This document shows, piece after piece, positions 39,807 through 53,560 of a stretch of 64,000 nt of DNA; position 1 is the first letter of the stretch; each line of letters begins with the position of its first letter. Made by a program: the position numbers and the translations under genes. The DNA is from Gemmatimonas phototrophica (GTDB taxonomy: Bacteria > Gemmatimonadota > Gemmatimonadetes > Gemmatimonadales > Gemmatimonadaceae), in NCBI RefSeq assembly GCF_000695095.2, contig NZ_CP011454.1:2976001-3040000 (forward strand), given 5' to 3'. The notes under the pieces are model-generated. The model did not search any database. It was not told the DNA's origin and saw nothing but the letters and a program-made list of their open reading frames with translations.

Positions 39807-40143
39807 CCCAGGAGGCTGGCGAGCGCAGGAGGATACTGGCGAGGAACAGCGCGGTGCCGTTCCCGATCACTATGAAGGGAGCATCGACGGATACCGTTGG
39901 GGAGTTTACGGCTCAGACGGACTCAGCGTTAGCACTTTCCCGAACGGCGGGCGAAGACATGCGGGGAAGCCCATTGCCCGCCCGGGGCCCCCCGGCGAAT
40001 CCATTCTTGACAGTCCGAGGTCCACTCCGCATTCTTTGTTCGGTTCCCAAACAAAGATCGCGGCCTCCTCCCGACCGCGAACTCTGCCAGCCTTCCCCTC
40101 CCGGCTGGCTCCCGCCTCCGTATCCGTCCCGGAGAGAAGTTCC
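39807..40143 (+). promoter_or_regulatory. Divergent promoter region between histidine kinase and beta-glucan locus
   Basis: 337 bases without a gene. It holds the inverted-repeat operator at 40034-40056 and a GGAG ribosome binding site (40130-40133) for the lipoprotein gene. I could not identify clear -35/-10 hexamers. The rest is GC-rich and without repeats. Confidence 0.55.
40034..40056 (+). promoter_or_regulatory. Inverted-repeat operator 1 of the beta-glucan locus
   Basis: CTTTGTT (40034-40040), nine-base spacer, AACAAAG (40050-40056). The seven-base arms are exact reverse complements. The identical arms with the identical nine-base spacing occur at 53533-53555 before the reverse operon of the same locus, with unrelated spacer sequence. 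It ends 87 bases before the lipoprotein start. The ROK repressor encoded downstream is the natural candidate to bind it. Confidence 0.75.
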
Positions 40144-42582
40144 ATGTCCATCCGTCTGTCTGCGCCACGGGTCCTTGGCCTTGCCGCGCTTGTGCTTTCC
40201 GCCGCCTGCGAGCGCGATACCAGCTCCCTCGAGCCGGCCCCTTTCCCGAGTACGGCCACCGTCTTCGACGACGCCTTTGCCGCCGGCCTGCAATTTCAGG
40301 CGTTCGGTGGCTCGAAGACTGACGCGCTGAGCACGGACGCCACGGTCAAGCGCAGCGGCTCTGCCTCGCTCAAGGCCACGGTGCCCGCCCCCGGGAACGC
40401 CAGTGGGGGCTACGCTGGCGGCGCCTTTGTCAGCACGGTCGCCCGTGACCTGACTGGGTACAACGCGCTCACCTTCTGGGTGAAGGCCAGCATTGCCGCC
40501 AAGCTCGACGTGGCAGGGCTCGGGAATGACAACACCGGGACGTCGCGCTTCAGTGCGGAGCGCACGCAGATCGATGTGTCGCCCACGTGGACGAAGGTCA
40601 CACTGCCAATCCCGTTGGCGTCCAAGCTCCCGGCCGAAAAGGGGTTGTTCTTCTTTGCCGAAGGACCGGAGAATGGTGCTGGCTACGACCTCTGGTTCGA
40701 TGATATCAAGTTTGAAAATCTCACCGATCTCGGTACGCTTTCGCCTGCCATTCCTACGCAGTCCCTGACCCAGGAAGTTGGTGGCGTGATCAACGTGACT
40801 GGCGCCACCGTCAAATACTCGACGGGCGGCGGCGAAGCCACGATGGCGGTGTCGGCCAACTATTTCACCTTCGTGTCGTCCGCCCCGACCGTGGCGACGG
40901 TGAACGACGTGGGCGCAATTACCGCCGTGGGCGTTGGCACGGCCTCCATTACCGCTCGCCTGGGTGATACCCCGGCCAGTGGGACCATCACGCTGCGGAC
41001 GGCCACGGCCCCGACGGCGGCCGCCCCCACGCCAACACGTGCGGCGGGCGACGTGATCTCGCTCTTCTCGAACGCCTACACCAACGTTCCCGTGGATACG
41101 TGGTCGGCCGGCTTCGACCAGGCCGACGTGGCCGACGTGAACATTGCCGGCAACGCCACCAAGAAGTACACCAACCTGGTGTTCTCGGCCGCCGAGTTCA
41201 TCAGCACCAAGGTGAATGCCACCGCCATGACACATCTGCACATGGATGTGTACGTGTACGATGCCGCGTCGTTCAAGGTGAAGCTGGTGGACTTCGGCGC
41301 CAACAATGCCTTCGGTGGCGGCGATGACTCCGAACATGAACTCACGCTGACGCCGACGACATCGCCCGCTGTAGTGGCCAACGCGTGGAACAGCTTCGAC
41401 ATACCGCTCTCCGCGTTCGCCGGGCTCACCAACCGAGCGCATCTCGCGCAATTGATTCTGCTGGCGTCGAGCCCCACGGTGTATCTCGACAACATCTATT
41501 TCTACAAGGTTCCGGCGCCGCCGGCACCGACCGCCCCCGTAACGGCCGCACCTGCCCCGACGCGCTCGGCGAGCAGCGTGATCTCGCTGTTCAGCAACGC
41601 GTACACGAACCGCGCGGTGGGCACGTGGTCGGCCGATTGGGATCAGGCCGATGTGGCCGATGTGAAGGTGGGCACCGATGATGTGAAGCGGTACACCAAC
41701 CTCGTTTTTGCCGGTGTCGAGTTCATTACGCCACAGGTGAATGCCACGGCGCTGACCGGGCTGCACATCGACCTCTGGACTCCCGATGCCACCGTGGCAC
41801 CGGCGGAGTTCAAGGTGAAGCTGGTGGATATCGGCGCTGACGGAGCGTTTGGTGGCGGCAACGACAAGGAGCACGAGATCTCGATCACGCGCGCCAACAC
41901 GGCCAGCTTCACCACCGGCACGTGGATCTCGCTCGATCTGCCGTTCTCTTCGTTCACCGGCCTCACCACACGCGGCAACCTCGCCCAGCTGATCATCTCG
42001 GGCACGCTGCGCACGGTGTACCTGGACAACGTGTACTTCTACGGCCCCGACGCGCCGCCTCCGACGGTGCCCACGACGGCCGCGCCGACCCCGACCTTTG
42101 CGGCCAACAACGTCATTTCCCTGTTCTCGAACGCCTATACCAACAGTGCCGTGAACACGTGGTCGGCGGATTGGGACCAGGCAGACGTGGCGGACATCAA
42201 GGTGGCCAACGACGATGTGAAGCGGTACACCAACGTCGTCTTCGCCGGCATTGAGTTTACCTCCACGCAGGTCAACGCCACGGCGTTCACGCACTTCTCC
42301 ATGGATATCTGGACGCCGAACGCCACCACGGCGGGGAAGGTGTTCCGGGTGAAGCTGGTAGATTTCGGCGCCAACGGCGCATTTGCCGGCGGTGACGATA
42401 CGGAACACGAAATCACGCTGACCGGCACCAGCACCCCGGCGCTGGGTACTGGCAGCTGGACCCGCCTGAGCATCCCCTTCACGGCTCTCCCGGGGCTGCA
42501 GGCGCGGGCCCATCTGGCCCAGCTCATCTTCTCCGGCGATTTGCAGACGTTCTACATCGACAACGTACTTTTCTACCGGTAG
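40144..42582 (+). CDS. Surface glycan-binding lipoprotein with three tandem jelly-roll domains
   Basis: 812 residues from ATG at 40144. The lipoprotein signal ends LVLSAACERD with the lipid-attached Cys. Next comes an N-terminal galactose-binding-like/CBM domain (about 35-195: LTGYNALTFWVKASI, YDLWFDDIKFE), then a bacterial Ig-like (Big_2) domain (PTVATVNDVGAITAVGVGTA), then three tandem copies of a domain of about 175 residues. Each copy starts with ISLFSNAYTN, has DTWSA-type Trp residues and DQADVAD, and ends with VYLDNIYFY-like strands. These repeats resemble the ExoP-like domains attached to GH16 laminarinases. I infer it captures beta-glucan at the surface as a SusE/F-like protein. It is first gene of the forward operon behind the shared operator. 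Confidence 0.85.
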   Translation: MSIRLSAPRVLGLAALVLSAACERDTSSLEPAPFPSTATVFDDAFAAGLQFQAFGGSKTDALSTDATVKRSGSASLKATVPAPGNASGGYAGGAFVSTVARDLTGYNALTFWVKASIAAKLDVAGLGNDNTGTSRFSAERTQIDVSPTWTKVTLPIPLASKLPAEKGLFFFAEGPENGAGYDLWFDDIKFENLTDLGTLSPAIPTQSLTQEVGGVINVTGATVKYSTGGGEATMAVSANYFTFVSSAPTVATVNDVGAITAVGVGTASITARLGDTPASGTITLRTATAPTAAAPTPTRAAGDVISLFSNAYTNVPVDTWSAGFDQADVADVNIAGNATKKYTNLVFSAAEFISTKVNATAMTHLHMDVYVYDAASFKVKLVDFGANNAFGGGDDSEHELTLTPTTSPAVVANAWNSFDIPLSAFAGLTNRAHLAQLILLASSPTVYLDNIYFYKVPAPPAPTAPVTAAPAPTRSASSVISLFSNAYTNRAVGTWSADWDQADVADVKVGTDDVKRYTNLVFAGVEFITPQVNATALTGLHIDLWTPDATVAPAEFKVKLVDIGADGAFGGGNDKEHEISITRANTASFTTGTWISLDLPFSSFTGLTTRGNLAQLIISGTLRTVYLDNVYFYGPDAPPPTVPTTAAPTPTFAANNVISLFSNAYTNSAVNTWSADWDQADVADIKVANDDVKRYTNVVFAGIEFTSTQVNATAFTHFSMDIWTPNATTAGKVFRVKLVDFGANGAFAGGDDTEHEITLTGTSTPALGTGSWTRLSIPFTALPGLQARAHLAQLIFSGDLQTFYIDNVLFYR
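41010..42582 (+). repeat. Three tandem copies of a 510-540 base coding repeat
   Basis: Copies begin near 41010, 41521 and 42055. All encode ISLFSNAYTN, TWSA(D/G)(W/F)DQADVAD, KxYTN(L/V)VF and (V/F)YxDN(I/V)(Y/L)FY. Copies 2 and 3 are closest to each other in the first half (NTWSADWDQADVAD). They most likely arose by duplication within the gene. Confidence 0.75.
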
Positions 42583-42622: not shown

Positions 42623-43867
42623 ATGTCCACCACCGTCCGCTGTGAGGTCGGCGTTCCCTCCGCCGACCTCTCCCGTCCCCGGTCGCTGTCCACGACGATT
42701 CTTCGACTCATCTGGGACGAAGAACTGATCTCGCGGGCCGAGATTGCACGCCGTTTGGATGTTTCCCGCTCCACTGTTTCTGAAATCGTGGACGGTCTCA
42801 TTGAGACCCGGTTGATTGCCGAGGCCGGCGTGGGGGCCTCGAATGGTGGACGACGGCCCATAGTGCTCTCGTTTCAGGACGAAGCCTTCACCTTGATGGG
42901 TGTCGATGTTGGCGCGTCGCATGTGTCCGTGGTGGTCACCGATCTCCGCGGACACGTTCGCGCCTGGCAGCGGCGGCCTTTCGATGTGCATGCCGATGCC
43001 GATGGAACACGAGCGCTGGTCCAATCGCTGTGCGATGCCTGTCTCTCTTCCATTGACCTTTCGGCCACGCCATTACTGGGGATTGGGATGGCGTTGCCGT
43101 CACCGGTGGACCCCCTCCATCCGGAGCGGGTCTCGCGCATAGCCCTGAAGCGCTGGAATGGCGTGCATGGTTTCGAGATGCTGTGCGAGCGGTATAGCGT
43201 CCCCCTCCTTATCGATAACGACGCCAATCTCGGCGCCTTGGCGGAGCACTGGTGGGGGGCCGCACGTGGCCTCTCCAATTTCACGTTCATCAAGATTGCC
43301 ACGGGTATCGGTGCCGGGCATTTCATTGACGGCCGCATTTACCGGGGTGCTGGTGGCGTCGCCGGTGAAATCGGCCACGTGACCGTGGATGTTCACGGGA
43401 ACCCGTGCGCGTGCGGTAACCGCGGATGTCTCACCACGTACGTGGGACGCCCGGAGATGCTGTCGCACGCGCGTTCTCTGTTGCCGGAGTATCCTGACAG
43501 CCTGTTGCAGCGTGGCGAGGTCACCATGTCCTCCCTTGAGGCGGCGGCCAATGCCAGTGATGCCTTGGCGTCGCGGGTGGTACAGGAAGCGGCCGAACAT
43601 CTCGGGTCGGTGGTCGCCAGCTTGCTCAACCTCATGAATCCGTCGGCGGTGATTCTAGGGGGCAGTCTGTGTCGGCTCCGGGAACGTGTCCTCATTCCCG
43701 TCCGCGAAGCGGTGATGCGTCGCACGTTCGTCAGTGCGGTGGCGTCGTCAGAAATACTTACCAGCGCCCTTGGCGATCGCGCCATCGCCATTGGTGCCGC
43801 GACCTTGGTCCTTGACGCGGTGCTCTCGGATCCGCGAGCACGTATGCCCGTTCCGTCCTCTCTCTAA
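42623..43867 (+). CDS. ROK family transcriptional repressor
   Basis: 414 residues. An N-terminal winged helix-turn-helix (ISRAEIARRLDVSRSTVSEIVDGL) is followed by a ROK sugar-kinase fold: LMGVDVGASHVSVVV (phosphate loop), IDNDANLGALAEHWWGAARG, GIGAGHFIDGRIYRG, GEIGHVTVD and the zinc-binding CACGNRGCLTTYV. ROK repressors such as NagC, Mlc and XylR release DNA when a sugar binds the kinase-like domain. It is 40 bases after the lipoprotein gene and 11 bases before the GH16 gene. It probably binds the CTTTGTT-N9-AACAAAG operators and responds to glucose or a beta-gluco-oligosaccharide. Confidence 0.9.
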   Translation: MSTTVRCEVGVPSADLSRPRSLSTTILRLIWDEELISRAEIARRLDVSRSTVSEIVDGLIETRLIAEAGVGASNGGRRPIVLSFQDEAFTLMGVDVGASHVSVVVTDLRGHVRAWQRRPFDVHADADGTRALVQSLCDACLSSIDLSATPLLGIGMALPSPVDPLHPERVSRIALKRWNGVHGFEMLCERYSVPLLIDNDANLGALAEHWWGAARGLSNFTFIKIATGIGAGHFIDGRIYRGAGGVAGEIGHVTVDVHGNPCACGNRGCLTTYVGRPEMLSHARSLLPEYPDSLLQRGEVTMSSLEAAANASDALASRVVQEAAEHLGSVVASLLNLMNPSAVILGGSLCRLRERVLIPVREAVMRRTFVSAVASSEILTSALGDRAIAIGAATLVLDAVLSDPRARMPVPSSL

Positions 43868-43878
43868 TCCTCTGTCCA

Positions 43879-44673
43879 ATGCGCCGAACTCTCTTTGCCT
43901 CGCTCGTGCTGGCGGTCGCCGGCTGCTCGTCGTCGTCCACGGAAGCCCCTGCCCGCACGCTGGTGTGGTCGGATGAATTCAACGGCCCAGCCGGACAGAT
44001 TGCGGACGCTTCCAGCTGGTCGTTTGATGTCGGGGAGGACTGGGGCAATGCCCAGTTGGAATACACGACAGACCGTGCCTCGAACGCCTCCCTCGACGGG
44101 AGCGGCAACCTGGTCATCACGGCGCGGCGCGAGAGTTTTCGCGGCCGGCAGTTCACCTCGGCGCGGCTCATTACCAAGGGCAAACGGGCGTTTCAGTACG
44201 GGCGCATTGAGGGACGCATGAAGCTACCGCGCGGGCGTGGCATGTGGCCCGCGTTCTGGATGCTGGGCGCCGACTTTCCGGTCACCCCGTGGCCAGCGGC
44301 CGGTGAGATTGACATCATGGAGTACCGAGGGCAGGAACCGAGCACCGTGGTGGGCAGCCTGCACGGTCCTGGCTATTCCGGCGGCGCTGCACGATCGAGA
44401 TCGAAGACGCTTACCGCGGCTCGACTGGACAACAGCTTCCACGTGTACGCGGTGGAATGGACGCCCGAAAAGATTGAGCACTTTATCGATGGCGAGTTGT
44501 ACTTCACCACCACCAAGGCGGATCTCCCGGGCCCGTGGGTGTTCGACAAGCCGTTCTTCCTTCTGCTCAATCTGGCGGTCGGCGGAAACTTCGTGGGTGC
44601 CCCCGATGACATCACGACGTTCCCGCAGCAATTGACGGTGGATTGGGTACGCGTGTACGAGGCGACGCCGTGA
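43879..44673 (+). CDS. GH16 endo-beta-glucanase (laminarinase-type) lipoprotein
   Basis: 264 residues. Signal with lipobox LAVAGC, so membrane-anchored. GH16 catalytic block GEIDIMEYRG gives nucleophile Glu143, assisting Asp145 and acid/base Glu148; the Met insertion between Asp and Glu is the beta-bulge form of laminarinases and lichenase-unlike enzymes. Upstream WPAFWMLG and downstream FHVYAVEWTPEKIEHFIDG are conserved in the family. It probably cuts beta-1,3-glucan or mixed-link glucan at the surface. The stop overlaps the transporter start as GTGA. Confidence 0.93.
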   Translation: MRRTLFASLVLAVAGCSSSSTEAPARTLVWSDEFNGPAGQIADASSWSFDVGEDWGNAQLEYTTDRASNASLDGSGNLVITARRESFRGRQFTSARLITKGKRAFQYGRIEGRMKLPRGRGMWPAFWMLGADFPVTPWPAAGEIDIMEYRGQEPSTVVGSLHGPGYSGGAARSRSKTLTAARLDNSFHVYAVEWTPEKIEHFIDGELYFTTTKADLPGPWVFDKPFFLLLNLAVGGNFVGAPDDITTFPQQLTVDWVRVYEATP

Positions 44674-46235
44674 CCAAACAAGGTGCGGCAGGCAAACTGG
44701 CCAAGACCGCCATTGCCGCATGGCATGCTCGGCTGGGTAAACGCAGCGGGGTCACGGCGGAATACGCCACGCCCGAGGCAGATCGCGTACCCTTTGCCCA
44801 GAAGCTCGCCTATGGCATGGGCGCGTTCGTAAACAACACGCTGGCCGCTGCGATTGGCGGTATGCTGATCATTCTGAATCTCGGGTTCGGGATGAACCCG
44901 GCGCTGGTTGGATTGGCCAGCGCCCTTCCGCGCGTCACGGATGCACTGACGGATCCCCTCATGGGATTCATTTCCGACCACACGCGATCGCGGTGGGGAC
45001 GGCGTCGCCCCTACATCTTCGTGGGGGCCATTCTCTCCGGCGTTTTTTTCGCGGTGTTGTGGATGATGCCGACCGGCAAGTCCGAGATGTTCTATTTCTG
45101 GTACTTCCTGATCGGTTCAACGATCTTCTATCTCGGTTACACCATCTTTGCCACGCCGTGGGTGGCTCTCGGCTATGAGCTGACGCCGGATTACAACGAA
45201 CGCACGCGTCTCATGGGCGTGCAGAACTTCATCGGTCAGCTGGCCTATATCGTATCGCCGTGGTTCCTATGGATCATGACGCACAAGCCGTGGTTCTCCA
45301 CGCCCGTTGAGGGTGCGCGGTCCCTGGCGCTTGCCATTGGCGCAGTGGCCATCGTGATCGGCATCATGCCAGCCATCTTTCTGCGCGAGCGTTTTGTGGC
45401 CGCGCCGATTGCGGCGCCAGTGAACGTGTCGGGAACGACGCGGCCACAGGAAAGCATGTGGGACATTGTCACCCGCAACACCACCCTGTTCTTCAAGGGC
45501 TTCGCCACCACCATCAAGTCGGGACCGTTCCGCCGATTGTGCGTCGCCACCTTTTTGGTGTTCAACGGTTTCATCATGATCTCGTCGTTTCAGTCGTACG
45601 TGATCATTTATTACGTGTTTGGCGGCAACCAGGAGCGTGGGGCCGAGTACGCGGGGTATGCCGGTACCATCGGCGCCATCTCGACATTCGGGGTCATCTT
45701 TCTGGTCACCTGGTTGGCGACTCGTATCGGCAAGCGCAAGGCGTTCTACTTCTCGACGGGCGTTTCCATGGTGGGATACGCGCTGAAGTGGTTCTGCTAT
45801 GATCCAACCCGTCCGTGGCTGGTCCTGCTGCCGGCGCCGCTCATGGCCTTTGGCCTTGGCGGACTCTTCACCCTCATGGGGTCCATGATCGCCGACGTGG
45901 TCGACGTGGATGAACTCGAGACCCATGAGCGCCGCGAGGGGATGTTCGGCTCCATCTTCTGGTGGGTCGTGAAGGTGGGGATGGCGGCTGCGCTGGCGAT
46001 GGGCGGGTTTCTGCTCAATGCCACCGGGTTTGATGTGGCGCTCGGCAGTCAGCAAACGTCGCAGGCACTCTTTCTGCTCCGCCTGAGTGACGTGCTGGTG
46101 CCGTTCATTACCTCCGGCATCGCCATTTGGACCATTGCCGGCTATCCCATTACCGAAGAGAAGGCTCACGACGTGCGACGCGCCCTTGAGGCGCGCCGCA
46201 CTGCGGCTGGTACTCAGCCGGTGACGAGCCCGTAA
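44670..46235 (+). CDS. GPH-type (glycoside-pentoside-hexuronide / MFS) sugar transporter
   Basis: 521 residues from GTG at 44670, coupled to GH16 by a 4-base overlap. About twelve membrane helices. The family loop DALTDPLMGFISDHTRSRWGRRRPYI is split here only for naming; the key part is DPLMGF followed by RSRWGRRRP, diagnostic of GPH symporters such as MelB and related oligosaccharide carriers. It should bring glucose or small beta-glucosides across the inner membrane with a cation. The C-terminus overlaps the convergent GH3 gene by 22 bases, where the two operons of the locus meet. Confidence 0.88.
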   Translation: MTKQGAAGKLAKTAIAAWHARLGKRSGVTAEYATPEADRVPFAQKLAYGMGAFVNNTLAAAIGGMLIILNLGFGMNPALVGLASALPRVTDALTDPLMGFISDHTRSRWGRRRPYIFVGAILSGVFFAVLWMMPTGKSEMFYFWYFLIGSTIFYLGYTIFATPWVALGYELTPDYNERTRLMGVQNFIGQLAYIVSPWFLWIMTHKPWFSTPVEGARSLALAIGAVAIVIGIMPAIFLRERFVAAPIAAPVNVSGTTRPQESMWDIVTRNTTLFFKGFATTIKSGPFRRLCVATFLVFNGFIMISSFQSYVIIYYVFGGNQERGAEYAGYAGTIGAISTFGVIFLVTWLATRIGKRKAFYFSTGVSMVGYALKWFCYDPTRPWLVLLPAPLMAFGLGGLFTLMGSMIADVVDVDELETHERREGMFGSIFWWVVKVGMAAALAMGGFLLNATGFDVALGSQQTSQALFLLRLSDVLVPFITSGIAIWTIAGYPITEEKAHDVRRALEARRTAAGTQPVTSP

Positions 46236-48019
46236 CCACGAGGGAAGAGTGGCGCCGACGCCTTGTACGTCGGCGCTGCCACCGTGGGCCAGGCAAAGGA
46301 CAACGTTCCGGTAAAGGGGTGGGCGCCCAACAGCACATCGGCAACCCCCTGCCCTTCGGAGCCTGGCAACCAGGCGGCCACAAAGGCCTGTGACGCAGCC
46401 AATTCGGCGTTGACCACCAACGGACGTCCGCCGACAAACACCGTCACCACCGGGATACCCTGCGCGGCAATATGCTGAATGACCGCGAGGTCTTCCGGGT
46501 GAAGCTGCGCGAGTTCAATGGTCTTGCCATAGGGCGCCAACGTGTGCGGCTTGACCATGACCTGCGACCCGGGTTCCACCCGTCCCCCGGCGCGAATGTC
46601 GCCCATCCCTTCGGCGTAGGGCTTCTCACCGATCACCACAATGGCGACATCATGGTGCGCAGCATTGGCGGAGGCGCCGCTCTCGTCGAGCACTGCCTGT
46701 GGGGCCACAGCCTGGATGCCCTCCCAAACGGAGGTGCCGCCTTCAATAGCCTCGTTCGTCGTCTCGCCCTGCCACGCCACGGTAAAGCCGCCGCACTGAT
46801 GCCCGCGATTGTGTGCGTTCTTCCCGGCCACCAAAATGCGCGCGGACTTCGAGAGCGGCAGCAGCGCCTGTTCATTCTTGAGCAGCACCAGCGACTTTCG
46901 CACGGCCTCGCGGGCGACGTCGCGATGCGCGTCGCTCCCGAAGGTTGCCGAGTTGGACCACGGCCGGTCCGCCGGCCGCGCCTTCTCGAAGAGGCCAAAG
47001 CGCAGTTTCACGGAAAGAATGCGCCGCACGGCATCATCAATGCGCTCCATGGCGATAATGCCCGCTTCGACCTGCCGGTGCAGCAATTCGAGGCACTGCT
47101 TCCATTCGACGGACACCATGAACATGTCGACGCCGGCGTTTGCCGCCATGGCAATGGCCGTCCCGTAGTCTTCGTGGAGGTAATCCACGCCATCCCAGTC
47201 GGAGACGACAAAGCCATCGAAACCCAGACGTCCCTTGAGCACGTCGGTGAGCAGATAGCGGTGGCCGTGACACTTCTCACCGTTCCAGCTGTTGAAGGAG
47301 GCCATCACGGTGAGCACACCGGCTTCGAGCGCCGGATAATACGGGGTCATGTGTGTGGCTTCGAGCGTCGCCTCATCGATGGCGGTGTCGCCCTGATCGT
47401 TGCCGGCCGTGGTGCCACCGTCTCCAACCCAGTGCTTGGCGCAGGCAATCACCCCATCATTCCCAAGATCTCCCTGCACACCGCGAATGTAGCCCGCCGC
47501 GAATGACGCCACGCGCGCGGGATCTTCGGAGAAGCTTTCGTAGGTCCGGCCCCAGTGCATGTCGCACGCCACCGCCAGCGTGGGCGCGAAGGTCCAGTCC
47601 ACACCGGTGGCAAGGACTTCGTGAGCCATGACCCGGGCAATGCGTTCCACCAAATCGGGATCGTTGGTGCAGCCGAGTCCGATGTTGTGCGGAAAAACGG
47701 TGGCGCCACGCACGTTGGCATGTCCGTGGATGGCATCAACCGCATACAGCAGGGGAATGGGCAGCTGCCCATCGCCATCGCGCATCGACGCGGCCCAGTA
47801 CGCATCATTCATGGCCACCCAATCCGCCACGGCGTTGGTCCCGGGGGCGGATCCGCCGCCGCTGAGGATGGACCCGAGGTGATACGTCGCCACGTCGTCC
47901 GGCGTCACGGAGGCACGCTCCCCCTGCACCATCTGCCCAAGCTTTTGGGCAAGGCTCATGCGGGAGAGCAGCGCATCGACACGGTCGGCAACGGAAGGTG
48001 CTAGCGAATGAGTAGCCAT
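46214..48019 (-). CDS. GH3 exo-beta-glucosidase (exo-1,3/1,4-glucanase type)
   Basis: 601 residues, two-domain GH3 without the fibronectin-III-like domain, like barley ExoI. The nucleophile Asp274 lies in GFVVSDWDGVDYL; the substrate-binding KHWVGDGGT and the TIM-barrel start VDALLSRMSLAQKLGQM are typical; the second domain has GAHPFTGTLSFAWP. It has no signal peptide, so as written it acts in the cytoplasm on imported oligosaccharides. It lies 36 bases after the second GH3 gene in the reverse operon and converges on the transporter gene. Confidence 0.93.
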   Translation of the reverse strand: MATHSLAPSVADRVDALLSRMSLAQKLGQMVQGERASVTPDDVATYHLGSILSGGGSAPGTNAVADWVAMNDAYWAASMRDGDGQLPIPLLYAVDAIHGHANVRGATVFPHNIGLGCTNDPDLVERIARVMAHEVLATGVDWTFAPTLAVACDMHWGRTYESFSEDPARVASFAAGYIRGVQGDLGNDGVIACAKHWVGDGGTTAGNDQGDTAIDEATLEATHMTPYYPALEAGVLTVMASFNSWNGEKCHGHRYLLTDVLKGRLGFDGFVVSDWDGVDYLHEDYGTAIAMAANAGVDMFMVSVEWKQCLELLHRQVEAGIIAMERIDDAVRRILSVKLRFGLFEKARPADRPWSNSATFGSDAHRDVAREAVRKSLVLLKNEQALLPLSKSARILVAGKNAHNRGHQCGGFTVAWQGETTNEAIEGGTSVWEGIQAVAPQAVLDESGASANAAHHDVAIVVIGEKPYAEGMGDIRAGGRVEPGSQVMVKPHTLAPYGKTIELAQLHPEDLAVIQHIAAQGIPVVTVFVGGRPLVVNAELAASQAFVAAWLPGSEGQGVADVLLGAHPFTGTLSFAWPTVAAPTYKASAPLFPRGYGLVTG

Positions 48020-48055: not shown

Positions 48056-50278
48056 TCAGGCATGCACCGTAAATTCGACATGCGCCTGCGTTGCCGAATG
48101 TGCAGCAACCCAGGCATGAAACCGGCCAGCTTCGGCACGGCGGGATAAATCCCGATGGGTGAACGCCAAGGCCTTGACCGGCAGCGAAAAATGGACCGTG
48201 CGTCGCTCGCCTGGCGCCAACGGGATGCGTTGAAAGCCTTTGAGTTCCTTGACCGGTCGGGTCACGCTGCCAACCAGATCGCGGATGTACAACTGGACCA
48301 CTTCGGTGACGTGATGAGCGCCGCGATTGGTAATGGTGGCGCTGATCTCCACGGTCCCATCCAGTGGCACCTCGGCGCGATGTACCGTGGGGGCATCGTA
48401 ATCCACCCACGTATACGTGAGTCCGTACCCGAACGGGAAGAGCGGGGACGGATGCACATCCAGATGGAACGAGGTGTTGCCAATGGACAGCTGCGGAGCG
48501 CGCGGATGAATATCCTGCATGTCCACCACCGTCTCCGGGGTGGCCGGCTTGCCGGTGTGCTTGTGCGCGTAGTACATGGGAATCTGCCCACTCACCCGCG
48601 GCAACGTGACCGGAAGCCTGGCCGATGGCGAGTGCTGTCCGAACAGCAGATCCGTGAGCGCCGGACCGGCCTGCGAGCCGGGGTGCCACGCGTAAAAGAG
48701 CGCATGCACCTTGTGGGCGACACGCTCCAGTGCCAGTGGACGGCCAGCCATGACGACCAGCACCACCGGCGTGCCGGTGGCAACGATCGCATCAAGCAGC
48801 GCCTCCTGTGCCCCCGGCAGGCTGATATCCGCCCGGCAGTGCGCCTCTCCTGAGAGAATAGCCTCTTCACCCAATACGAGTACAGCCACGTCGGCGTTGC
48901 TGGCGCACAGGACCGCGTCGGCGAATCCGCTGGTGTCGTGACTGCGCGTGGTCGCCAGACCGCGGGCATAAACAACTTCCGTGTTGGATGATACGGCGCT
49001 CTGCAAGGCCTGCCGCACGGTGGTGCTGAGCGATGCATCGCCGTCAAAGATCCACGTGCCCAACTGTTCGTAGGCATCGTCGGCCAACGGGCCAATCACC
49101 GCAAGGCGCCGCAACGCGCTGGCGTCGAGCGGCAATAGGTACGACCCGTCATGCATCGTGTTGGTGAGCAGTACGATGCTTTCCCGGGCAATCTCTCTGG
49201 CGGCGATCAGATGCGCTTCGTTCCCCACCAAGGGCAACTGCGCCTGATCAATGACGGGCTGTTCGAATAGTCCGAGCCGTACCTTCAGGCGCAGTACATT
49301 CGCCACCATCCGATCGAGCAGCGCCATGGGCACCACGCCATCCGCCACCAGCGACTCCAAATGCGCGGCGTAGGTGGTGCTGGCCATTTCCATATCTACA
49401 CCCGCCAAAGCGGCCTGGCAGGCGGACCCTCGATCGTCTACCGTGAGGCCGTGCACCGACAGATGGCGTACCGAATCCCAATCGCTGACGACCATCCCAT
49501 TGAAGCCCCATAACGAGCGCAGGACGTCCTCGAGCAGCTCCCGATTGGCGGTAGCCGGCACACCGTCGATATCGCTGAACGACGTCATGACGGTGGCCAC
49601 GCCAGCTTGCACCGCCGCTTCGAACGGCGGCAAATGCACATCGCGCAGTTCGCGGGGGGCGATGTTGGTGCTGTTGTAGTCGCGCCCACTTTCCGATGCG
49701 CCGTAGCCTACGAAATGCTTGGCGCAGGCGGCAATGCTTCCCGGGGCCGTGAGATCCTCTCCCTGAAAACCGCGCACCGCCGCCGCGCCCAGCACCCCAG
49801 TGAGCCACGGATCTTCACCAAAGCCCTCAGCCACCCGTCCCCAGCGAGGATCGCGGCCAATGTCGAGCATGGGCGCAAAGGTCCAGTTCACTCCGTGGGC
49901 CGACGCTTCGTGCGCCGCGATGCGCGACGCGCGCTCCACCGCCTCGGGGTTCCAGCTGGAGGCCATACCCAGCGGAATGGGGAACACCGTGGCAAAGCCG
50001 TGAATCACATCGCGCCCGATCAGCAACGGGATACCGGACCGCGATTCGTTCATGGCAATCGCCTGCAGGCGCGCCACGGTCTGTGCATTGACCTCGTTGA
50101 TGATGGAGCCAATTGCCCCATCGCGGATCGCCTGTGCCAGTGTATCGGGAATGTGGCCTCCCCCACCCTGCACCTGCTGCAGCTGCCCGATCTTTTCCTG
50201 GATCGTGAGCGTCTGCAGCAGGGCGGCGACACGTGCTTCGGTGGCGTCCAACGTCACCGGCAGATCAACATCCAACAC
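48056..50278 (-). CDS. GH3 beta-glucosidase with C-terminal fibronectin-III-like domain (BglX-like)
   Basis: 740 residues. GH3 TIM barrel with IPLLIGRDVIHGFATVFP, nucleophile Asp266 in GMVVSDWDSVRHL, the second alpha/beta sandwich domain and the C-terminal Fn3-like domain (VVQLYIRDLVGS, RPVKELKGFQRI). No signal peptide was found, in contrast to E. coli BglX, so it is probably cytoplasmic or uses another export route. It releases glucose from the non-reducing end of beta-glucosides. Its start lies 3 bases after the end of the barrel-glycosidase gene and it precedes the other GH3 by 36 bases. The two GH3 proteins differ in architecture, so this is not a recent duplication. Confidence 0.93.
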   Translation of the reverse strand: MLDVDLPVTLDATEARVAALLQTLTIQEKIGQLQQVQGGGGHIPDTLAQAIRDGAIGSIINEVNAQTVARLQAIAMNESRSGIPLLIGRDVIHGFATVFPIPLGMASSWNPEAVERASRIAAHEASAHGVNWTFAPMLDIGRDPRWGRVAEGFGEDPWLTGVLGAAAVRGFQGEDLTAPGSIAACAKHFVGYGASESGRDYNSTNIAPRELRDVHLPPFEAAVQAGVATVMTSFSDIDGVPATANRELLEDVLRSLWGFNGMVVSDWDSVRHLSVHGLTVDDRGSACQAALAGVDMEMASTTYAAHLESLVADGVVPMALLDRMVANVLRLKVRLGLFEQPVIDQAQLPLVGNEAHLIAAREIARESIVLLTNTMHDGSYLLPLDASALRRLAVIGPLADDAYEQLGTWIFDGDASLSTTVRQALQSAVSSNTEVVYARGLATTRSHDTSGFADAVLCASNADVAVLVLGEEAILSGEAHCRADISLPGAQEALLDAIVATGTPVVLVVMAGRPLALERVAHKVHALFYAWHPGSQAGPALTDLLFGQHSPSARLPVTLPRVSGQIPMYYAHKHTGKPATPETVVDMQDIHPRAPQLSIGNTSFHLDVHPSPLFPFGYGLTYTWVDYDAPTVHRAEVPLDGTVEISATITNRGAHHVTEVVQLYIRDLVGSVTRPVKELKGFQRIPLAPGERRTVHFSLPVKALAFTHRDLSRRAEAGRFHAWVAAHSATQAHVEFTVHA

Positions 50279-50281
50279 GAC

Positions 50282-53200
50282 TTACCACGCAACGGAGAGA
50301 TACGTCCGGATTTCCCACTCCGAACCATTCCGTGCCGGCGCCGTGGGATCACACACCGGCGATCCGGTCACGAGATCCGGCGCAAACTCCGGGCAGAAGC
50401 GCGGCGAGAACTTGTTCAGCGACCGCCACGTGCCACGCATACCCACCTTGGTTTCCGGCACATCCCACCACTGCGGCGACCCGAAGGCGTACGACAGGTC
50501 CCCCATGAACTGTTTGGGGAAGGTGAGATTGAAGTCACGGTGGTAGTCGAACGGGCCCCAGTCGTTGAACTTGGCCGCGCCAATGAGCTTCACATGCTGC
50601 TTGACGGCGCGCAGGTCGATTCCCGAGCGGTGCAGCAGCCGCGGATCGTTGCCGTTGGGTTCGGCCGTTCCGGTGTAGACGTTCGCAATGAGCCGCAGAT
50701 CCGATCCCACCTTGGAAATGATGCGCGAGCGAACCTCGTACAGGCTACGGGCCGGTGTGGCGCCCGGGAAGGCAAAGGTCGTACGACCGTCGGCCAGAAT
50801 ACCAATGGCCGCATCCATGGTGGTGGGCAAGCGACGATAGACGTAGCCGAGGTTGGCGGCGAAGCGCGCATCCTCACGCATATCGTTGTCCCAGGCGTAC
50901 ATCCAGGTGGCCGGGGTGGGATCGAACGTGAGCAGCATTTCGGCGCCGTACGTTTCGCGATTGCCGCGCACCGCAAACGGATCGTCGAGGACGTTGCGCG
51001 GACGGGCGGGCGCAGGTGCCGTGAAGGGCACCGGTCCGGCGATGGGCTTCTGGTACAGCACGTTGGGAGCGAACTGGAAGGACCCGTACGTGACCGTCAG
51101 ACCGGTCATGATGTTCGACTGGTTGTTGAGCCCCGTCTCCTTGAGGCTCCACCCCGTGAACGTCTGTACGGAGGTGGGGCCACCGTCGGCCACGAGCCCC
51201 ATCACCGCGCCCTGCGCGTACCAGTTGTAGCGACCACGCGTGTAGGTCACCTTGGCTTTGCCACCAAAGGCATCGCTGTCACGCACCTTGTCCGCCAGCA
51301 CGCGCGATCCGTCAACGATCTGGAAGGGCACACCGACGCGCGTGGCACCAGCCCAGATACCGCCGGCTTCCACACCAAAGCCGGCAATGGTGTCGGCGAG
51401 ATGCAGCGTGGCACGACGCGTCTGCGGAAGCGGTACGGCGAACGAGCTGTTGGTGGCCGACGCGTTCAGCTGCGCCACTTCTTCCTGATACAGACCGGTG
51501 ACGTGTACGCCACCCACCTTGCGACCGTACTTGCCGATGATCATGGGGTTGGCGCCCCACCAGAGTTCCGGCCCGAGCGCCAGCTTGAGCCCCTGCAGTT
51601 TGCGCTTCCCCGTGAACTCCATACCGGCCGGAGCATTGCCGTTATAGATGTCCATGTTCTTGCCGTAGTTCGCTTCGCGATAGATCCCGAAGAAGTCGCC
51701 TTCGTAGCCCCAGTGATAGTGGCCGGAGCGGTAGAACGCATCGAGGCGGAAGTTCTTCTCATCCCACGAGACGCTGGCGCGATACACGGCGAGGCGCTCG
51801 TTGTCAGTAATGCGCAACGGCGACCCATCGGTGAGGACCGTCCGCGCACGCCCGCGATTTTCGTAGAAGAGTTCGTCGATGGGATTGTTGGGCACGTTGC
51901 CCAGCACGTTCAGGGACAGCGTCGCGGAGAAATTGTCGGCAGGGCGGGCCGTCAGATCGGCATAGAAGCTCTCAAGCCGATCAAAGCCCGTGAACGCCGG
52001 CCGCGCGGTCGCGCTGGGGGTCCGTGACGATGGCGTGCTGAGCTTCTCGCCGCCGGTATTGAACGTCTGCAGGTCAAAACGGAGTCCGCTTACGCTGAAC
52101 TTGTTGTTCCCCGCTCCTGATGCGGCCCCGCCCTCGGCGCGCGCCCGTAGCTCCGCCTCGGCGGGGGCAATGGCCGCAAAGTGGCTGCGGATCACGGCGG
52201 CGGTGGAGGTAGCGGCGTACGGATCGATCTGGTAGGCGCGCTGCAGTGCGTAGAACGCGGCACGCGGATAGAGCGGATAGAGCCCACGCGAGTCGGGGGC
52301 GCCCTTCGCGACAATGCCCCACCACTCTTCGTTCATGTTGTTCTCGCCTTTGACATAGTCATCGGCGTAGGCCGCGTTGGACCACGAGGCATTCACATCG
52401 TGCTCGCTGAGTCGCACGTCCTGACCGTACTTCCACCAGCCATCAGTCCACTGGAACGTGAACCCGCCAATGGAGTTGCCGGTGCGCCCCTTGCCGGCCA
52501 CGTTTTCGAAGATCTCCTGCCACTGCGCGAGCAGATAGCGCGTCTGCGACAGCTGGTCTTCGCGCATATCACGCGCGTTGTACGCATCGGCGCCGAACTC
52601 GGTGAACATCACCGGCAACCCGAGGGTGGTCTTCACGCGCTCGAAGAGATCGCCAAACGACGCACCGCGGTACACGTTGGTGCCAAAGACATCGAGTCCC
52701 TTGGCCTCACGGGCGATGATGTCGAGGTACTGCAGGTCGCCGTTGGCCAGCGCCACCGGACGTGAGGCGTCACGCGCCTTGATAGCGCGCGAGACTTCAC
52801 CGACCAGCGAGTAGAGAAAGGTGGCCTTGGCGGCGTCGCGCTCACCGGAGGGAAGATTCTCCGTGGCCGCGGACTTCCACTGCAAGCCGTAGTTGTTTTC
52901 GTTGCCAAGCAGCCACATGAGCATGCCGGGCGTGCCGCGGAACTCATCAACAAGCGCGAGCACTTCGGCGGTCAGCGCCTGCCGCACGCGGGGATTGGAG
53001 TAGTCCGTTTGCGGGGTAAACACGCCGTTGATCGTCGTGCCATACCGCCCCAACGCATGGTTGAGCACGGTCCAGATGCCATACTGCTCGTAGATGTACT
53101 TCACCCAGCGCGGCGGCACGCCGTTGTACTGCCGAATGACATTGACCCCCATGACCTTGAGCAGGGACATCTCCCGGTCTAGCGCCGCCTTGATGACATC

Positions 53201-53458
53201 ATCCGGCTGCGTCCAGAGGCTGTAGGCATAGTTCTGCCCGATGGGGAAGTAATCCCAGTTGACGCCCTTGAGCAGGACATCAGCGCCGTTGACCTGCAGT
53301 CGGGTGCCGGCGGCATCAGTGCGAATCTCAATGCGGTCTGGCGCCGTCTGGGCAGCGAGTGGAGCGGGCACGGCACCCGCGAGTCCCAGGAGAATCACGG
53401 CCGTTGCCACACCACGCTGCAGCGGGCGGGGCGCCATCATGGACAATGCATGCATCAT
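50282..53458 (-). CDS. Clan GH-A glycosidase fused to an outer-membrane beta-barrel
   Basis: 1,058 residues. Signal peptide 1 to about 37 (cut after APLAAQ). Residues 40-430 form a GH2/GH5-like TIM barrel: LKGVNWDYFP, MGVNVIRQYNG, acid/base Glu187 in LLGNENN and nucleophile Glu287 in VMFTEFGADAYN, 100 residues apart as usual in clan GH-A. Residues about 440-1058 contain many alternating amphipathic strands ending in turns, rich in Tyr, Trp, Asn and Gly (for example LRLIANVYTGTAEPNG), and the chain ends in Trp (TYLSVAW), all typical of an outer-membrane beta-barrel. So the enzyme would be held at the outer membrane by its own barrel. It heads the reverse operon, with GGAGG about 12 bases before the ATG and the shared operator 75 bases before it. 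Confidence 0.82.
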   Translation of the reverse strand: MMHALSMMAPRPLQRGVATAVILLGLAGAVPAPLAAQTAPDRIEIRTDAAGTRLQVNGADVLLKGVNWDYFPIGQNYAYSLWTQPDDVIKAALDREMSLLKVMGVNVIRQYNGVPPRWVKYIYEQYGIWTVLNHALGRYGTTINGVFTPQTDYSNPRVRQALTAEVLALVDEFRGTPGMLMWLLGNENNYGLQWKSAATENLPSGERDAAKATFLYSLVGEVSRAIKARDASRPVALANGDLQYLDIIAREAKGLDVFGTNVYRGASFGDLFERVKTTLGLPVMFTEFGADAYNARDMREDQLSQTRYLLAQWQEIFENVAGKGRTGNSIGGFTFQWTDGWWKYGQDVRLSEHDVNASWSNAAYADDYVKGENNMNEEWWGIVAKGAPDSRGLYPLYPRAAFYALQRAYQIDPYAATSTAAVIRSHFAAIAPAEAELRARAEGGAASGAGNNKFSVSGLRFDLQTFNTGGEKLSTPSSRTPSATARPAFTGFDRLESFYADLTARPADNFSATLSLNVLGNVPNNPIDELFYENRGRARTVLTDGSPLRITDNERLAVYRASVSWDEKNFRLDAFYRSGHYHWGYEGDFFGIYREANYGKNMDIYNGNAPAGMEFTGKRKLQGLKLALGPELWWGANPMIIGKYGRKVGGVHVTGLYQEEVAQLNASATNSSFAVPLPQTRRATLHLADTIAGFGVEAGGIWAGATRVGVPFQIVDGSRVLADKVRDSDAFGGKAKVTYTRGRYNWYAQGAVMGLVADGGPTSVQTFTGWSLKETGLNNQSNIMTGLTVTYGSFQFAPNVLYQKPIAGPVPFTAPAPARPRNVLDDPFAVRGNRETYGAEMLLTFDPTPATWMYAWDNDMREDARFAANLGYVYRRLPTTMDAAIGILADGRTTFAFPGATPARSLYEVRSRIISKVGSDLRLIANVYTGTAEPNGNDPRLLHRSGIDLRAVKQHVKLIGAAKFNDWGPFDYHRDFNLTFPKQFMGDLSYAFGSPQWWDVPETKVGMRGTWRSLNKFSPRFCPEFAPDLVTGSPVCDPTAPARNGSEWEIRTYLSVAW

Positions 53459-53532: not shown

Positions 53533-53560
53533 CTTTGTTCGCCGTGACAACAAAGTTGTC
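53533..53560 (-). promoter_or_regulatory. Inverted-repeat operator 2 of the beta-glucan locus
   Basis: CTTTGTT (53533-53539), nine-base spacer, AACAAAG (53549-53555): arms and spacing identical to the site at 40034. A second overlapping inverted repeat, GACAAC-AAA-GTTGTC (53546-53560), shares its right half. It lies 75 bases upstream of the barrel-glycosidase start, in the 177-base gap after hslU, which holds no gene. Confidence 0.75.

Follow-up and report, generated by a model that had tools for sequence, protein, structure and literature searches.

What does a bacterium gain from joining a glycoside hydrolase to an outer-membrane barrel in one polypeptide? The question is raised by a gene in a 64,000-nucleotide window of the Gemmatimonas phototrophica genome, the whole stretch analysed here (assembly GCF_000695095.2, contig NZ_CP011454.1, positions 2,976,001 to 3,040,000 of the forward strand). 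The gene, at 50282..53458 on the minus strand, is a single unbroken open reading frame for a protein of 1058 amino acids; it is present once in the 4.7-Mb one-contig genome and has full-length relatives of 52-78% identity in many phyla. We could thus confirm that a clan GH-A hydrolase and a predicted outer-membrane barrel are contained in a single chain. On balance, we favor the view that this fusion protein is an outer-membrane channel for glucan oligosaccharides that lacks a TonB plug and has a GH158-like glucanase built in on its periplasmic side.

Read from its N terminus, and with all parts on the minus strand, the protein carries a Sec signal peptide (residues 1-36, 53351..53458, end placed by eye), a clan GH-A TIM barrel (residues 42-446, 52121..53335), a linker (residues 447-453, 52100..52120) that is seven residues long in 77 of 81 relatives, and a predicted outer-membrane β-barrel of about 24 strands (residues 454-1058, 50285..52099). 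The signal peptide, already noted from the letters alone, has a Sec-like make-up (an Arg, a hydrophobic run and LAAQ) and contains no lipobox Cys. The GH domain was best matched in Pfam by the GH2_C TIM barrel (E = 9.4e-6), to which all 41 GH-domain sequences compared gave a match, with some GH72 matches besides. A profile search of PDB sequences instead ranked GH158 first (6pal, BuGH158, E = 5.7e-8, then 9oro, GH158(Pro)), with GH2, GH5-type and other GH-A members close behind. In VIA structure comparisons the leading matches scored Z 26-28, with GH157 at the top (Z 28.0) followed by GH2 and GH158 (Z 26.6); the GH157 structures listed contain laminari-oligosaccharides. The search for a GH family that had been proposed for this domain therefore returned clan GH-A, with GH158 as the best PDB profile match but GH2_C as the choice of Pfam. 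A LacZ-type GH2 enzyme was rejected because the GH2_C/TIM part alone matches; the N-terminal sugar-binding and Ig-like domains of GH2 are absent, and the TIM domain begins at about residue 43. The C-terminal Ig-like domain of BuGH158 is absent as well, as the TIM barrel leads straight into the membrane barrel and the stand-alone relatives described below stop at the TIM barrel. Because of this absence and an identity of only about 20% to the GH158 and GH157 structures, we placed the domain in the clan and not in one family. A GH158-like glucanase is the best reading of the sequence; GH158 comprises endo-β-1,3-glucanases (PMC7157763).

Both catalytic residues named from the letters alone stood up to alignment. 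Glu187 (52898..52900, minus strand), in the NENNYG motif of LLGNENNYG, aligns with E137 of BuGH158 and is the proposed acid/base, and Glu287 (52598..52600, minus strand), in the TEFGAD motif of FTEFGAD, aligns with E220 and is the proposed nucleophile. In the alignment with 6pal the catalytic Asn-Glu pair follows β4 and the second Glu follows β7, as in GH158. Both residues are kept in 119 of 119 fused and 15 of 15 unfused relatives compared.

The C-terminal part, residues 448-1058, was modelled alone with AlphaFold2. The prediction is a membrane β-barrel (mean predicted local distance difference test, pLDDT, 84.5; predicted template modelling score, pTM, 0.81) in which we counted 24 strands. 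All matches listed by Foldseek and VIA are membrane barrels: TonB-type barrels, OccK porins, ushers, MtrB and SusC, plus mitochondrial VDAC and TOM. The best end-to-end VIA matches, covering model residues 1-611, are the 24-strand ushers PapC (Z 13.8, 368 residues aligned, root-mean-square deviation 5.2) and FimD (Z 13.4), and SusC BT1763 is also among the matches (Z 10.7). Neither a β-sandwich nor a β-helix appears in the lists and both were rejected for this part of the protein, in agreement with the earlier proposal of a barrel of about 600 residues. The general hallmarks of outer-membrane barrels are present (signal peptide, amphipathic antiparallel strands and short turns), with closure judged solely from the end-to-end match to closed barrels. 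Sequence searches were silent in comparison: the barrel has no PDB sequence match at E ≤ 10, no credible family in Pfam or NCBIfam, and no usher family match in Pfam, such that the agreement with ushers is limited to barrel geometry. Weak matches to DUF6882 in 22 of 81 members (best E 1.6e-4) were taken as chance. No TonB plug domain (PF07715) was detected anywhere in the window, and the same profile gave 51 matches in the genome. Barrel-only proteins were not found among 395 Gemmatimonadota genomes; one short frame, in genome G182, ends at a contig end. The terminal Trp that had been pointed out is present in this protein but is not a family trait, since it is the last residue in 13 of 81 relatives and the others mostly end in Met, Leu, Lys, Ile or Phe. 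The conserved C-terminal feature is the last strand, EWEIRTYLxV.

Conservation within the barrel is uneven. Lumen-facing strand positions average 3.17 bits and long loops 3.00 bits, compared with 2.64 bits for lipid-facing positions. Several long loops are nearly fixed (RxGHxHWxYEGDFFGxY, LWWGAN and GPxDYHRDFNxT), and the loop between strands 5 and 6 (residues 577-610, 51629..51730, minus strand), with the pattern RxGHxHWxYEGDFFGxY...NG.AP, reaches 3.76 bits over 34 residues. Because the residues facing the lumen and the long loops are so strongly conserved, the barrel is unlike a passive anchor.

On which side of the membrane does the enzyme reside? In the model, 9 of 11 strand connections on one side have 2-6 residues, and the other side has 12 loops of 7-36 residues. 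In outer-membrane proteins the short-turn side is usually periplasmic, and the N terminus of the barrel lies on that side of the model, which suggests that strand 1 and the GH domain preceding it start in the periplasm. The helix ahead of the linker is also found in stand-alone GH relatives and hence belongs to the TIM barrel, and the seven-residue linker is too short to span the pore; the enzyme is therefore expected at the periplasmic mouth. When fused and stand-alone GH domains were compared for docking-face residues, the differences were confined to T142 and the C-terminal end, and no interface could be named. The model thus argues for a GH domain that is periplasmic rather than on the cell surface. 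Cutting, anchoring and perhaps passage of products had been proposed to be combined in one chain; hydrolase and barrel are indeed joined, but the topology and the linker make cutting of polysaccharide at the surface unlikely, and the conserved lumen and loops suggest that the barrel does more than anchor. Cutting at the surface is more probably a task of the GH16 lipoprotein encoded nearby than of the fusion.

The opposite placement would follow if the C-terminal barrel exported the GH domain in the manner of an autotransporter, so that polysaccharide would be cut at the surface. Type V secretion proteins have the order signal, enzyme, C-terminal barrel, and their known barrels have 12 or 16 strands. 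The fusion has the same domain order and loci of this kind usually have surface enzymes, but its predicted barrel has about 24 strands, its linker is seven residues long instead of the helical linker that threads the 12-strand pore in type Va proteins, the helix ahead of that linker is part of the TIM barrel, and its long loops are conserved. We consider export of the enzyme improbable and retain a periplasmic enzyme at the mouth of a channel.

The distribution of relatives provided a view of the system in which the fusion operates. When 84,980 species genomes were scanned, 268 relatives were obtained, and the best 80 of these belong mainly, a few labels of metagenome-assembled genomes aside, to Gemmatimonadota, Zixibacteria/GN15, Latescibacterota, Krumholzibacteriota, Eisenbacteria, Delongbacteria, Rhodothermota and Bacteroidota. 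Among sampled genomes, 44 of 395 Gemmatimonadota (one copy each) and about 33 of 395 Bacteroidota encode the fusion. We then compared a first set of 40 fusion loci with at least 5 kb on both flanks and a second set of 39 further Bacteroidota loci. The first set contains GH16 in 38 loci, a lipoprotein with repeats and an Ig-like domain in 36, MFS_2 and ROK in 27 each, GH3 in 23 and GH149 in 19; in the Bacteroidota set the counts are 38 for GH16, 39 for the lipoprotein, 34 for GH149, 24 for GH17 and 20 for GH30. The identification of GH149 comes from a phmmer match (E = 0) to 6hq6, which is a β-1,3-oligosaccharide phosphorylase. The lipoprotein family is encoded near 75 of the 79 fused loci with enough flank, and in the Bacteroidota loci its gene adjoins the fusion gene, 0-129 bp apart. 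Judged by their gene content, nearly all fusion loci examined are probably β-1,3-glucan loci. Three fused members (L013, L016 and L026) have fetched loci without the lipoprotein and GH16, with only 2.4 kb downstream in L026. A very divergent fused member (L149 523-3345, on a contig of genome G1160; 811 bits, branch 1.64) may represent a second subfamily with a different substrate. Two distant GH relatives (L133 8713-10134 and L134 9131-10528, 87-93 bits) belong to a pair of similar loci in which several GH3 genes, GH16 and ROK are encoded; their system is related to the present one but distinct from it.

TonB-receptor and SusD profiles built from the G. phototrophica genome were used on the relatives' loci. 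In the 40 loci of the first set they detected no SusD, and a TonB receptor only as one 34-bit fragment at a locus edge; over both sets SusCD was present in 9 of 79 fused loci, in addition to this fragment. The method can detect SusC, since the same TonB profile scored 351-394 bits for receptors near stand-alone GH genes.

These stand-alone genes offer a natural experiment. Fifteen GH proteins (L123, L124, L125, L127-L132 and L143-L148), all from Bacteroidota and mostly in GH149/MFS_2 loci, have no barrel; the complete ones are about 430-480 residues long and stop where the barrel would begin. They keep the active-site residues that were checked, except for position 376 in two of them. In a GH-domain tree, obtained by a quick search with a distant outgroup, they occur in about five places within the fused forms, and its starred branches require five or more changes. 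This is most simply read as repeated loss of the barrel, and GH and barrel distances that run parallel among fused forms (r = 0.76) fit one old fusion. The lipoprotein family accompanies 51 of 57 fused loci on the tree and 0 of 11 stand-alone loci, and across five independent tree contrasts the barrel and this family change in the same direction in a mean of 4.7, and in opposite directions in none. Such joint presence or absence of barrel and lipoprotein is what a functional pair would show. SusCD occurs in three of the stand-alone loci (L124, L128 and L148). Relatives that lack both barrel and lipoprotein, three of them with SusCD, are in line with a SusC-like role of the barrel.

The same relatives bear on whether the barrel might do nothing but tether the enzyme, with uptake left to ordinary porins or unlinked TonB receptors. 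In several stand-alone proteins the signal peptide is followed by a lipobox-like Cys, so membrane tethering of the enzyme recurs, and the 51 TonB plug matches lie elsewhere in the genome. A 600-residue barrel is a costly anchor, however, and neither conservation of its lumen and long loops across phyla nor its absence jointly with a specific lipoprotein would be anticipated for one. Tethering alone thus appears unlikely, and we continue with the barrel as a channel.

In the window the fusion gene belongs to one of two convergent gene runs. The plus-strand run begins with the repeat-containing lipoprotein (40144..42582), a putative surface glycan binder with Cys followed by ERD and an Ig-like (Big) domain (E = 5.7e-6, just below the curated cut-off), followed by a ROK-family regulator (42623..43867; Pfam ROK 4.3e-53), a GH16 lipoprotein with lipobox VAGC that is likely a surface endo-β-glucanase (43879..44673; Pfam GH16 1.4e-24), and an inner-membrane MFS_2 sugar transporter (44643..46235; Pfam MFS_2 8.9e-59). 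The minus-strand run consists of the fusion gene, a GH3 gene that starts 3 bp past it (48056..50278; Pfam GH3 5.7e-79) and a second GH3 gene (46214..48019; 8.1e-79). Both GH3 proteins are likely β-glucosidases without an evident signal peptide, and we tentatively place them in the cytoplasm for that reason. The lipoprotein family (here and at L137 12185-14725) is built of repeated units DVISLFSNAYTN...YLDNIYFY and the Ig-like domain; it has no PDB sequence match and only Big-type domains in Pfam, and may represent a new carbohydrate-binding module. In the window, the surroundings of the fusion gene showed no SusC/SusD gene. A SusC/SusD-like pair at genome positions 2965685-2969484, about 6.5-10 kb left of the window, is one of five SusD-bearing places and is unlinked to the glucan locus.

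Each run is preceded by the palindrome CTTTGTT-N9-AACAAAG, at 40034..40056 upstream of the lipoprotein gene and at 53533..53555, 75 bp upstream of the fusion ATG. These are the only two exact sites in the genome; a reversed-pattern control gave none, and shuffled windows would contain 0.02 sites even with two mismatches. Two operators before two gene runs probably indicate a single regulon. The operator is kept before the fusion gene across several phyla: among 40 loci in which a ROK gene was detected, 27 have it upstream of the fusion (0-2 mismatches), compared with 0 of 13 stand-alone GH genes, and the ROK protein likely regulates through it. Another palindrome tried first, GACAACNNNGTTGTC, was not clearly above chance when mismatches were allowed. 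Searches for sigma-70 promoters and terminators found none, which is uninformative.

Taken together, these data suggest the following route. The surface GH16 lipoprotein would cut β-1,3-glucan, and the repeat-rich lipoprotein would capture the fragments. These could then enter the plug-free barrel, where the conserved lumen and long loops would bind and gate, and the GH-A domain at the periplasmic mouth would hydrolyze incoming oligosaccharides, preventing back-diffusion and giving short products. MFS_2 or an Opp-type ABC transporter may carry the products across the inner membrane, and cytoplasmic GH3, or the GH149 phosphorylase in relatives, would finish the breakdown. The reverse direction, in which the barrel releases glucan made by the cell and the GH domain trims it, would recall the exopolysaccharide-system pairs PgaA/PgaB and BcsC/BcsZ, which the predicted arrangement of a large barrel with an enzyme at its periplasmic opening resembles. 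The recurrent neighbors are catabolic, though (GH16, MFS_2 or ABC importers, GH3, GH149 and sugar-type regulators), and no glycosyltransferase is among the recurrent neighbor families identified, making a role in export very improbable.

Several observations weigh against an import channel that replaces SusC/SusD. A 24-strand pore would leak unless the loops or the GH domain shut it. Four of the 40 first-set loci are without the lipoprotein family, and the contrast test gives p = 0.0625, the minimum reachable with five pairs. Glucan specificity rests on neighbor genes and distant homology. Finally, SusCD pairs are also present in 9 of the 39 Bacteroidota fusion loci, and across the tree SusCD itself does not track barrel loss, both of which weaken simple substitution. 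Of the earlier suggestion that the fusion stands in for a missing SusC/SusD pair, what survives is that no pair is found in the window or near the 40 first-set loci; the co-occurrence in Bacteroidota speaks against it, as does a genome that, with its 51 plug and five SusD matches, is not short of TonB receptors. Still, the fusion seems often to do the job of the TonB-driven SusC/SusD importer, through which, by the textbook account, large glycans cross the outer membrane of Bacteroidota.

If this is correct, bacteria have a second route for glycans in which hydrolysis possibly replaces TonB energy. More tentatively, we envisage a new class of importer, an alternative to SusC/SusD, that combines a plug-free barrel of about 24 strands, a hydrolase docked at its periplasmic mouth and its own surface lipoprotein, with hydrolysis in place of TonB energy rendering uptake one-way. 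Laminarin-type glucan is a major algal storage polymer, and the presence of the fusion from Gemmatimonadota to Bacteroidota in laminarin-type loci bears on the uptake of algal carbon. For annotation, the fusion can serve as a marker: a locus that lacks SusCD may have a dedicated outer-membrane importer all the same.

The domain types (clan GH-A enzyme, outer-membrane barrel and glycan locus) are known, unlike their combination and the role it appears to have; barrel and lipoprotein are unnamed protein families, and we found no description of such a GH-barrel fusion in the open-access literature, preprints being outside the search. The closest functional parallel is the SusC/SusD importer, which also pairs a large barrel with a co-regulated lipoprotein amid a GH16 lipoprotein and the same catabolic neighbors, and whose SusC BT1763 is a structural match. 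The fusion differs in having no TonB plug, no sequence similarity that we could find, about 24 instead of 22 strands and its own hydrolase, and its lipoprotein partner is not matched by the SusD profile. GH158 enzymes (6pal and 9oro) share the clan GH-A fold, the catalytic Asn-Glu and nucleophile Glu, and β-1,3-glucan loci, but are about 20% identical, and the fusion lacks the C-terminal Ig-like domain of BuGH158, has a barrel attached and is, as single sequences, best matched by GH2_C in Pfam. The PapC/FimD ushers resemble it in the 24-strand barrel and are the best end-to-end match, but the fusion has no detectable sequence similarity to them, lies in a sugar locus and has no recognized internal plug domain. 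Autotransporter enzymes share the signal peptide, N-terminal enzyme and C-terminal barrel; the fusion barrel is about twice the size, no linker spans the pore and the enzyme is predicted to be periplasmic. Lastly, some CAZyme clusters of Bacteroidetes have been noted to lack susCD and to contain GH149 together with GH3/GH30 and GH16/GH17; with MFS_2 or Opp ABC transporters they closely resemble the fusion loci (PMC5827456). In the available text of that paper the outer-membrane components are SusC-type or TonB receptors, and no GH-barrel fusion is described; some of these clusters may have the fusion as their outer-membrane part.

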